Positions 22,203 to 49,000 of a stretch of 64,000 nt of DNA are shown piece by piece; within the stretch, counting starts at the first letter, position 1; each line of letters opens with the position of its first letter. The notes beneath the pieces are model-generated. The model did not search any database. It was not told where the DNA came from and saw only the letters and a list, made by a program, of their open reading frames with translations. The stretch lies in assembly GCF_032854445.1 (NCBI RefSeq), contig NC_088297.1, positions 12,693,039-12,757,038 of the forward strand, in the 5' to 3' direction. The position numbers and the translations under genes were made by a program. This DNA is from Liolophura sinensis. Lineage: Eukaryota > Mollusca > Polyplacophora > Chitonida > Chitonidae.

Positions 22203-25200
22203 CTGAAAGAAAAAAAGAAGACCAGTTAATAAGTAAATCAGATTTTCAAATTACCTTTTTTATTAGTTATTAAAATCTGAGGAAATATGTATCTGTGAGT
22301 ATGATTTGCTTCTTTTCATGCATGGGATTATAGCTCACTTCCAACATTTCAGACAGATCCCTATGGCGTATCTTTCTAGCAGGCCGCTTCCATGGTGGCA
22401 ACATCCATGGTGGTGCCTCACTGGAACGCCATGTCAAAGACACTAGACATAATGTCCCACCCAGCCACAGCAGGCTGATATCTGACTAAAAAAAAGAACA
22501 CCAGCAATTCCATTATGCTGTGCCAAAACATGAGCTATGCCCTTAAATACTGCCTGGGCTAAAACAAATTTCTCCCTACAATATTCTTGACTACCATTGT
22601 AATATACCTCATAAGTGGTAAAACAAAATGTCAAAATCTGCAAGGAATTCACATGAAACATCATCTTGGAGCATAAGATTAAATTTTCTCTTGTACTTGA
22701 CTCGTGCTCAAAGCAGTTTTCAAATCTTGAATTCAGCACAGCCCAATGACCCAGGAGCCTCTCACCAATGGGGTCACTGTGAGTTCAAGTCCAGCTCATG
22801 CTGGCTTTCTCTCCAGATATATGTGGGAGGTTCTGGCAGCAACCTGTGGTTGTGCATTTTCCACGGGCTATGCTCAGTTTTCTCCTACCGTGATGCTGGC
22901 CACCGTTGTATAAGTGAAAATTCTTGAGTACAGCATAATACACCAATCCATAAATAAATTAATAAATGTTTAATTTTTGTCCATTTATACCACTGTGATC
23001 AGGTTTACAGCTGGAGGAAACCAGAGTAGGCAGAGCGTATCACCACATTTTCAAGCATAGGGTTGGACTGTATCCTTTGACCCCACTGGTCAGACTTACG
23101 AACAAGAGCGAGACAATGCTTTTCTACAATGAACAGAGCAAGAGCCCTGCAATAGGAGATTCACTCTTCTCCAAAGTCATACTTACAAACTCAAAGTCTC
23201 CGTCTATGAACGCTCTCTGAAAGTGATGTGGAGGTGTGACTTGTCGCTGCTGTACTGGCTGTTGTTGTTGTTGTTGATGTGGGGGCGGACCTTTTGATTG
23301 CCCCACCTTCTGGCTGTTATGTTCCTCCTCCTTTTTCTCAAAATGGTCAAGGTAGGCAGGTCTGTATTTCTTCTCTCCAGTTCCAGTGTCATGCCCTGAT
23401 AAAGGGAGGTAATCACAAAACTGTTCAATAACACAAATTTCAACTACCAGACAGATCCCATGAATTTCACAATGTATATTATTATGTACATGATTACGCA
23501 CATTTTCTTAAATTGAGCCAAAAATCATTTACAAAGCTATTCAATAGCCATCAAAATCATGACTGCATATTTTTCTGGCCCCATTTCTTCTTGAAAATCA
23601 TATTCCTCAACTGATGTCACTCATTTTACTCAGTGTTCAGTTTCAAGTTTTCATTTTAATACAAACATCGAAACCCTCGTTTACCCCAAGTATGAGCTAG
23701 GTGTATTATGTGATGATTTATGTGTTATAATAAGACAATGGGAGTTGTAAAGTTTAGTGTGCCGCTTTGGTCATGTGATAAAAGATAGAACGTCAATTTA
23801 TTGAAGAATGTGCTTTTCGATCATCAGAGAAGCAAGTTAACAACAAACAAGTCGAGGCAGCCCCCATAAACTGTCGCCCTCTGTCGCCTATTTCCTATCC
23901 ACAGGGATGAGGCACCATTAGCCTCTCCTGATTAACCACAAGTGCTACTATGGTGAACACAACATCAAAAGTATTTTATGGTCCAACGTGTTACATGCTG
24001 CAGTTTTGTCTACAACATAGATGGTCCACTCACAGCACTACTAGGCTGTTCATGATGCAGTAAATTGTTCAGCATCATTAAAATGGTAAAATTATGTCCC
24101 ACTGCATTCTGTAAGTGTCTGATTGAGAGAGATGTAACTAAGTGAACTTACGCTTCATTGTGTCTTCATCTGGATCCTCATTAATAACCATCGTTCCCAA
24201 AGACTCCTCCAGTGTGCTGTTCTCACTGCTAATTATCACTGTGCCACTTGTACTGGCTACCAGAGTGCCTGCAGACAAAACACAGCTCAGTAAAACATTG
24301 AGTTGTCATGAAACTGTTCTCACTAATTATCACTGTGTCACTTGTACTGGCTACCAGAGTGCCTGTAGACAAAACACACCTAAGTGAAACATTAAGTTGT
24401 CATGAAACTGTTTTCAGTGCTATTTATCACTAGGCCACTTGTACCGGCTATCAGAGTGCCTGGTGACAGAACACAGCAGTGAAACATTAATGTGTCATTA
24501 AACTGTTCTCACTGCTAATTAGCACTGTGACACTTGAACCTGCCATCAGCCACAACCCTATTTTTGAATATGCATGTAAATACAGCTGCAAACTCTAAAA
24601 CTCACGTGTTTTTTCATGCTGCTAATATTGATTTCACTGACGTTGATTTTCATCTTGGATTATAAAAAAAATGGACTACTGCATCTCGTTTTAAATCAAG
24701 TTCAATCATTACGACAACAAAGCAAACACCCAAGTGGAAAATAACCCTTATTCAAAAAATCAATCTAATTCTGTTTATTTAGCTTTCTATATTCTGATAC
24801 CACCCCATGTTGAATTTAAATCAGAAGACTGACCCTACCAAGCCATAAGGGGACAACATCACTCTGCAAAGCGACATCACTCTGCGAAGGGACATCACTG
24901 TTTTACCACTGATATATATCCAAATACATGTATTTCTTATACACTTACAAATCAGAGTTGAACATATTTTATTGCGTTATACACAATGGGATTGGGAACA
25001 AGTTCTAGAAAACCTTTAAAATTTCTCAACTTCAAGTTCAAGAAAGTGGAATTGGAGCACCTTCTTGTTCACAGTTGAAAATTTCTTTACCTTCATTGTT
25101 CATGTCCTGAGCCTTCATTGTACCAGCGTCCTGATCTTCTTTCATCTGTACCATGGTACCATCTGTTTCATCTTCATCACCCTGTTTTTATACAAACACA

Positions 25201-46000: not shown

Positions 46001-49000
46001 TCCACAATAACATTTTATGCAATGTTATTCTAGGAGAAGGCACTTCCATAATAATATTTCATGCTGTGTCATTCTAGAAGTATTCTAGAAAAATAATATT
46101 TTTTGCAGTGTATTTTGAATTGAGTTACTTATTTATTTGATTGGTGTTTATGCTGTACCCAAGAATATTTCACTTATACGACAGCATAGCTGGGGGGAAA
46201 CCGATGATCACAGCAGGCTGCTGGTTCTTCAACATTTGCCAAGTTTCGTATTATGCAAAACATAAATAAATGTTTTTCTGCTCCAGGTATTTGAAGACCT
46301 CTACACTTACATGAAGTCTTTAGAGACCATATTGTCCTTGCAACCCAGAGTTATCTACCCTGGCCATGGACCAGTGATTGAGAACCCCATAGAAGTGATA
46401 CAACAGTACATCAGCCATAGGCAGATGAGAGAAGGTCAGATATTGGGCACTTTGAAAGAGCGGGCTGGCCAATCATTGACCGCTATGGAATTGGTCAAAA
46501 TAATTTATAAAGTAAGTTCTCTACTTAAAAAGATGGCCTGTTTAATTTTTCAACAAAAATGCTATTTGTCTCACCATGAAGATCCAAAACACCGGTAAAT
46601 GATCCCACGGAAGCAAATTTCTTTCACAATTCAGTAGCTACACTGGTAGTTTTTATGATAAACATTGTCCTACTGATTGGGCGTCCGGCCATGCAATTGG
46701 CAAGCTAGCACAAAACACTGACCCTCACCATAATGTTGGCCGTCGTCGTATAAGTGAAATATTCTTGAGTATGGCGTAAAACACCAGTCAAATAAATAAA
46801 TAAATAAAAACACTGACCCAGGAGCCTCTCACCAATGTGTTCGCTGTGCGTTCAAGCCCTGCTTGTACTGGTTTCAGTTATAGGCAGGAAGGTCACCCAG
46901 TAACCTGTGAGTGGTTTTCGGTTTCCCCCAAGCTTTTCCCTGTTTTCTCCCACCATAATGCTTGCCACCGTGGTATAAGTGAAATATTTTTGAGTAAGGT
47001 ATACATCTCCAATCAAAATAAATAATACTCTTCATTATGAAAGCATAAAAAATGCTGAAATAAATATTCAAAAATGTTTCATAGTTTTTTTGTTTGATGC
47101 TGCACTGCTTTTTTGTTTGGTTTAAATAAGCCATATGACATAACCTTCCACTTTAATGAATTGAGTTCAATCAAATTTAGAGCATAGCGTGATGACATTT
47201 ACAATCACTCATCCGATTCTCATATAAGGTACAAAAACACTGTGTATTCTTGAGTACATCGTGAAATACAATTCAAATAATTGAACAAAAACACATCGAA
47301 AAATACTGAAATCAATTAAATGATATCGACCTCTGACCTGTCTATCATGACCTCTGGGCAACCTTTGCATGGTGACCTCTGTCATGAAACTGTGACCAGC
47401 ATTCTGCTGTGCCAGTCAATCAAGACAACTAATTATGCAGTCTTTGGTACATGTTTTATTCAAACAAATTGTTGCATACAGAACGTATTTGGTGTGATGA
47501 CATCGGTTTCTACTTTTGCTTGTAATTTCAGGATGTTCCTGAACGTCTTCACCTGCCAGCTGAAAAGAACGTGAATAATCATTTGGTCAAGTTAAAGAAA
47601 GAGAACAAAATAGGTAAATTTAAACGGCATGAATATCCTAAATGACGTTAAATTGCGTCCATGACTAACTTATCCATTTTTCCTGATTCTGAGAGTTCCG
47701 CTGATTGTAGAATGGTGTTTTGAGGTTTGTTAAGAACATGGGATGATACTCTACTGGAAAATTACAAGTTTCAGCACCAAAAATGATATATTGTGACATT
47801 TATTTGCCTCTAAAAATGCGTTTTTGTAGGCGAACTTTTAGGGCATGTAAAGTATCCCAAATTACCTGGAAGGAAAAGTGATGAGTTTTTGTTTGTCTTT
47901 CACAATACGAATCCTTCACAATATGGCGGGTAGTATATTTGCCCTAAAATTTTGTTAGATAAAATTCATTTTATAGGCTGTAAAGACATAATATATTGAT
48001 ACTCATTTATGATTTTCCAGGAGGGTATTATCTTAACCCTCTAAACAAGTCTAACAACACCTTTCTCAAATCAACAGATCTCTCTCAAGTCATCAAAATG
48101 AGCAATGTAGTCATGGAAGAAATTTTCGGTAGAACAAAGCCATTGTAAATTTTCTCAAGACAGTGCTGTTTCTGTAAATCTTTCACTTCAAAAACTGAGA
48201 AGTAGGATATTTGATGATTTCAATATTTTCATAAAATTTAATGATGTCATCTCTATGACATATGAATAAACAAGAGTAGCTGGTACACCTGTACATACAC
48301 AGTACTATTCACACATATGAACAAGCACTTGAGTACTGAGCAGAGTTTGATTGATGGATGGGCCAGTGGATTGCTGCCAATGAAGAGTGTGGACAGAGGG
48401 TGGGTGGCAGACAGTAGTGGGTAGGGATAAAGCTTCATATAAAAAATGGGGCCTCCGTGGCTCAGTTGGTTAGCACGCTAGCGCAGCCTGGTGACCCAGG
48501 AGTCTCTCACCAATGCGGTGGCTGTGAGTTCATGTCCAGCTCATGGTGGCTTCCTCTTCAGCTGTACGTGGGAAGGTCTGCCAGCAATCTGCGGATGGTT
48601 GTAGGTTTCCCCCGGGCTCTGCCCGGTTTCCACCCACTATAATGCTGGCCGCCATCGTATGAAATAGTGAAATATTCTTGAGTACGGCGTAAAACACCAA
48701 TCAAATAAATAAATAAATAAATAAATCATATAAAACGTCTGTGGATGCTTAATTTGGTCAGCCTTTGTAGTCATGCACATATAGAGGTTCATCACAGTTT
48801 GTACAATGGTGTCGGAAGCGGTACGGACACTTTCCATTAAAAAAAAAATGCAAAAATGGCCTTTTGTGCGGGAATTGTCGACTGATGACCATACCATTTT
48901 CAAATTGCTTCCAACATGTCTGTCCTAAACGGATAACAACTTCTGAGTTATTGCTATGCAGTGTTTTTGACACATGTTCTGACATCATTGTCGAACATTG

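Follow-up and report, generated by a model that had tools for sequence, protein, structure and literature searches.

The window analysed here is a 64,000-nucleotide stretch of the chiton Liolophura sinensis (contig NC_088297.1), part of a 609-Mb assembly of 632 contigs, and it carries two divergent genes in which tandem arrays are built on exon-intron junctions. The gene on the minus strand, STK3/4 (MST1/2), harbours three of the four arrays; it was called MST in the sequence-only reading of this DNA that preceded our work, whose exon numbering differs from ours while the junctions are identical. LACTB2 lies on the plus strand. The identity of STK3/4 is based on 203 residues from its first six exons, matching the solved STK3 chain 4lgd (E 3e-111), and that of LACTB2 on 245 residues matching solved beta-lactamase-like protein 2, 4ad9 (E 5e-95). 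We take both chains to be human and beta-lactamase-like protein 2 to be LACTB2.

Five arrays with a period of at least 40 base pairs (bp) were called by Tandem Repeats Finder (TRF) between 22 and 49 kb of the window. In four of them, the terminal unit contains an exon edge, at two donors and two acceptors (Table 1). Array copies share 27 of 28 exon bases at the 36040 donor and all 12 exon bases, inside a 58-bp edge alignment, at the 32074 acceptor. At the 24268 acceptor about 52 exon bases are common to the copies, and the 54-column alignment running from the intron AG contains one mismatch and one 3-bp gap. The LACTB2 donor shares an exon stretch of 18-22 bp inside a 40-column edge alignment. 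For the fifth array, edge alignment matched neither end of its intron.

Table 1. Exons and tandem arrays of the STK3/4 and LACTB2 genes (positions in the window)
Feature	Position	Strand	Description
STK3/4 exon	36040..36102	-	donor gtgagt; last 28 bp and donor form the terminal unit of the 97-bp array
STK3/4 donor-side array	35676..36064	-	TRF: 97 bp, 4.0 copies, 97% match; three scored copies keep GT
STK3/4 exon	31977..32074	-	starts cag/GATACAATGGCC; first 12 bp and acceptor form the terminal unit of the 56-bp array
STK3/4 acceptor-side array	32063..32847	-	TRF: 56 bp, 13.8 copies, 81% match
STK3/4 exon	24152..24268	-	starts gcag/GCACTCTGGTAGCCAG; first ~52 bp and acceptor lie within the 94-bp unit
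STK3/4 acceptor-side array	24217..24540	-	TRF: 94 bp, 3.4 copies, 83% match
LACTB2 exon	45368..45470	+	donor gtaaaa; last ~20 bp and donor match the 44-bp unit
LACTB2 donor-side array	45449..46077	+	44 bp; includes the diverged exon-edge unit; TRF call is 45535-46077
STK3/4 array, negative case	37719..37831		54 bp, 2.1 copies

The sequence-only reading had claimed that each of the four arrays has its terminal unit over a splice junction, and this is borne out by comparison with 346 control edges taken from other loci. An array's own edge scored above the best control at the 36040 donor (106 against 23), the 32074 acceptor (31 against 27), the 24268 acceptor (96 against 26) and the LACTB2 donor (30 against 26), with some window exon coordinates off by a few bases in this comparison and refined afterwards. 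When the array was used in full as the reference, the corresponding scores were 39 against 27 for the 32063 array and 30 against 28 for LACTB2, which is the weakest case (30 against 26-28); the margin of the 32074 acceptor is also small. The alignment of units to exon edges, which the same reading had proposed as a check, was controlled by 300 shuffles, and these were beaten at all four edges: 51 against 27 for the exon part at 36040, 88 against 26 for the 24268 edge, 79 against 24 for the whole 32074 edge, and 26 against 22 (exon part) or 30 against 28 (edge) for LACTB2. Only the exon part at 32074, taken alone, fell below its shuffles (24 against 26), because 12 bp are too short to reach significance.

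By TRF boundaries alone, three of the five arrays cross exon edges, compared with 0.43-0.67 expected under the null (P 0.005-0.018, calculated with the same slightly displaced exon coordinates); the exon unit of LACTB2 falls outside the TRF-called array. When the null was conditioned on intron length, 1.04 of five arrays were expected and the probability of at least four was 0.006, a figure to be read in the light of this case having been picked for standing out.

The proposal that the exon edge is the source of the repeated unit is supported by two further results. At the exons 36040, 31977 and 45368, edge residues could be aligned to the solved chains of STK3 and beta-lactamase-like protein 2 (the exon at 24152 lies outside the query), and three arrays (35676, 32063 and LACTB2), searched for genome-wide with a program that skips very common words, gave matches at their own locus only. 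A dispersed satellite or transposon-borne family is rejected for these three arrays, their units being private to the locus.

As a comparison, 49 stretches amounting to 280 kb were collected around chaperonin, myosin, kinesin and adaptin exons and chosen for exon density. TRF arrays with a period of 20 bp or more were merged, and an array was called as crossing when it overlapped both flanks of an exon edge by 5 bp or more; the sampled edges may include gene ends besides splice junctions. Such crossing was found for 9 of 45 arrays in sample 1, 5 of 31 in sample 2 (kinesin) and 2 of 8 in sample 3, that is, for 16 of 84 arrays among 408 exon edges. One further crossing array, L017, was recognised by in-register extension, bringing the rate to 17 of 408 edges (~4%). 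In all 17 arrays the own edge outscores all control edges. With the extension case counted, they occupy 12 donors and 5 acceptors, a donor bias that is not significant (P 0.14). Examples are an array at a myosin exon reading NPLLEAFGNAKTVRN (L018), an array at an exon holding GESGAGKT, with 9 exon bp common to both (L013), and an array at the kinesin edge SETKSTLMFGQ (L037); all three motifs are presumably conserved. The smallest unit periods are ~26-140 bp, and higher-order periods of up to 219 bp were also called. Among candidate crossings, L005 8172 and L021 2401 were rejected because the predicted edges were wrong and the arrays intronic, and L005 8553 because the array only abuts the edge, by 1 bp; at L039 the edge was relocated from 2101 to 2131 and the array crosses still.

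Comparable arrays thus occur in chaperonin, myosin, kinesin and adaptin genes, and the suggestion that the 22-kb region of the window has some special property has to be abandoned: 4 of its 36 edges (3 of the 36 are gene ends) carry arrays, not clearly more than the 17 of 408 in the sample (Fisher P 0.08).

Of the 84 sampled arrays, none is confined to a sampled exon match, whereas 9.2-10.6 would be expected, which fits the earlier idea of selection against arrays extending into exons. The position of the junction within the unit is consistent with a uniform distribution (17 arrays, mean 0.48, Kolmogorov-Smirnov P 0.55), as random duplications would give. Unit length has no reading-frame bias, 5 of 21 periods being multiples of three, and a role of the reading frame was rejected on this ground.

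The copied splice sites are mostly intact. Among copies scoring above threshold, 211 of 239 in 21 arrays keep GT or AG. Identity of the splice dinucleotides (0.927) is close to that of the exon-derived (0.916) and intron-derived (0.917) parts of the unit, so there is no overall depletion. Per array, the dinucleotides are slightly above the rest, with a Wilcoxon P of 0.004 that overstates the difference, since the interior of an alignment tends to score higher. The largest stacks include L036 1470-4734, with 45 scored copies of one donor edge (39 with intact GT), and L013 1546-2906, with 42 scored copies of one acceptor edge (40 with intact AG).

Boundary repeats of amphioxus genes have been named "mirages", and we propose that the arrays of the window are probably mirage-type minisatellites, produced by ordinary tandem duplication and kept on the intron side by selection. 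Short tandem duplications, with units of ~26-140 bp, would arise widely in the genes of this chiton, and some would span a junction by chance. The exon-proximal splice site would then serve as before, leaving the protein unaltered, and the surplus copies would turn into intron sequence that can expand and diverge freely. A duplication confined to a coding exon would alter the protein and be purged. The apparent anchoring on junctions would need no machinery aimed at splice sites, because the filter against exonic duplications alone can give the anchored look, copies across a junction being pushed to its intron side. Both the duplication mechanism and the use of the exon-proximal site are read from genomic sequence and should be taken as inferred.

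Several results weigh against so simple an account. Selective loss of decoy splice sites is not seen overall, but two window arrays are exceptions: a direct count found GT in 6 of 13 LACTB2 copies (threshold scoring had found 3 copies), and in the 32063 array only 4 copies out of 12 keep the aligned AG, which, judging from the letters, looks displaced by one base there. Junctions are also crossed somewhat too often. When one unit per array was placed randomly in array-collapsed loci, with wholly exonic placements barred, the 16 observed crossings compared with 8.9 expected for the best period (P 0.010) and 6.2 for the smallest period (P 0.0004); sample 1 alone gave 9 against 3.8 or 3.1 (P 0.009 and 0.002). 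In a more local control, edge-crossing arrays were compared with arrays whose near end falls in successive unit lengths inside the intron. The 17 crossing arrays were followed by bins of 14, 7, 12, 9 and 10 (best period) or 11, 10, 7, 9 and 9 (smallest period), so that 17 stand against 9-10 per neighbouring bin (P 0.058 for the best and 0.026 for the smallest period; with L017 set aside, 0.091 and 0.045). Finally, exons were defined by profile matches that were partly corrected by hand once arrays had been seen, and unlisted exons exist; 20 profile matches with at least two stops (samples 1 and 2) were retained with profile ends as edges, and L018 and L036 were set by hand.

The excess is the main argument for the strongest rival, a local duplication process favouring splice junctions, for instance template switching close to exon edges, linked to replication-transcription or to R-loops, by which junctions would seed more arrays than intron sequence. 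The sequence-only reading had raised such a process, and the whole-locus comparison, at 1.8-2.6 fold over random seed placement, points in this direction; the local control, with 1.6-1.9 times as many arrays as in the neighbouring intron bins of one unit length, is borderline. Likewise, the expectation that array ends would meet splice sites more often than randomly placed ones holds for the pooled 280-kb sample, but not for sample 2 by itself, in which 5 crossings compare with 4.2 or 2.6 expected (P 0.40 and 0.11). For arrays whose period is 40 bp or longer, P is 0.009-0.04. The near-end distribution has no sharp spike at the junction (inner bins 7-14), and the uniform position of the junction in the unit speaks against such a process as well. 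Two features of the analysis favour crossing: extension past TRF ends was sought at exon edges only, and introns were analysed with their transposon sequence included, which would inflate the apparent excess. A mild preference for junctions is possible but not established; we consider a dedicated junction-favouring process rather unlikely. The broader statement that splice junctions of this genome are mild hotspots, at which tandem duplication is about twice as frequent as in intron sequence, is doubtful too. If true, it would imply that duplication is coupled to exon edges or to co-transcriptional splicing, and would leave several percent of junctions with stacked intact sites in competition that the spliceosome must ignore.

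Retention of the arrays by selection, with the extra donor and acceptor copies acting in splicing as alternative sites, decoys or enhancers of efficiency, would account for the high proportion of intact GT and AG and for the slightly higher dinucleotide scores per array, although the alignment-interior bias favours the latter. It accords poorly with units private to their own gene in the three arrays searched, with unit lengths free of frame bias and with the frequent loss of GT in LACTB2. The amphioxus mirage papers, in the portions accessible, report that normal splicing is undisturbed (PMC3087553, PMC3902484). A splicing role is accordingly improbable.

The reverse order of events, in which arrays came first and gave rise to exon edges or introns by intron gain or exonisation through tandem duplication (Rogers-type), has a proposed precedent in amphioxus globins (PMC3087553) and in exon-intron boundary repeats from which new introns can arise in human genes of recent duplication (PMC2812944), as far as the available text of both papers goes, but it is scarcely credible for the chiton arrays. 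The expected signature, both intron ends being copies of one AGGT-containing exonic segment, failed: near ends score 30-106 against control maxima of 23-28, while the far intron end goes unmatched in all four arrays (15-17, unremarkable among the 346 controls). The alignment of edge residues with solved chains also makes this order unlikely for three of the four exons, the one at 24152 having been outside the chain query.

Neutral duplication filtered by selection is most likely the mechanism; the observation itself is correct, and its kind is known. Mirages were described in the amphioxus globin genes BflGb6 and BflGb9, with Adh3 cited as well (PMC3087553); troponin C mirages and similar PGBD5 repeats were added by a second paper (PMC3902484). 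According to the accessible part of the first report, they occur at both boundaries, have units of 10-160 bp, carry AG/GT signals in many copies, and vary in length between haplotypes and somatically with splicing apparently undisturbed, their mechanism being called "unclear" (PMC3087553). To the extent that these accounts could be compared, the chiton arrays are alike in being minisatellite-like tandem duplications over boundaries, at donor and acceptor ends, in having units that take in both the exon side and the neighbouring intron sequence of a genuine junction, in unit length, whose smallest periods fall within the amphioxus range, and in the splice dinucleotides kept by many copies. They differ in coming from a mollusc, with a rate sampled over four gene families, and in being known from the sequence of a single assembly; they give no evidence for intron gain, which was proposed for the amphioxus globins.

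Two human cases are also related. The 6-16 gene reportedly has, to judge from a paper's title, a tandem repeat bearing copies of a splice donor, with donor sites in the transcript; the chiton donor copies, seen in genomic DNA, can be likened to it by that title only. In human genes within segmental duplications, internal tandem repeats at exon-intron boundaries were found with TRF (PMC2812944). Going by the available part of that report, minisatellite expansion at boundaries is common to them and the chiton arrays, but the human repeats alter exons or make new introns in recent paralogs, whereas the chiton exons tested are conserved.

In molluscs, a 27-bp minisatellite within an intron of an abalone gene appears in the accessible text of one paper (PMC6905558), and a literature search that reached few subscription papers found no prior report of mollusc mirages among the papers listed. 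The present results add a mollusc to amphioxus as a source of mirages and supply a rate for sampled edges. Stacks of mostly intact splice sites such as those at L036 and L013 offer natural tests of site choice by the spliceosome, and mirage arrays are raw material for models of intron gain.

Such arrays can also mislead exon finders. At L037 5888-7901, a kinesin mirage array, one copy is sufficiently exon-like to score as a separate kinesin exon in a profile search; this match (7509-7631) was removed from the exon list as a copy within the array.

Three minor observations concern the window itself. In the STK3/4 exon at 31977-32074, the frame after CVADIW hits a stop ahead of the next GT donor (31967-31977), and there is no in-frame reading into the next exon, as would be the case with one extra base; this may reflect an assembly error, a variant allele or an unusual splice. 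The predicted start codons of STK3/4 and LACTB2 are ~340 bp apart (39628-39964), and this spacing, together with the divergent layout, suggests a common promoter region. One interspersed element, recognised by eye, has copies in both orientations in introns, at 26518-26690, 27420-27690, 31560-31840, 33560-33775 and 37107-37385; in our judgement it resembles a short interspersed nuclear element derived from tRNA.

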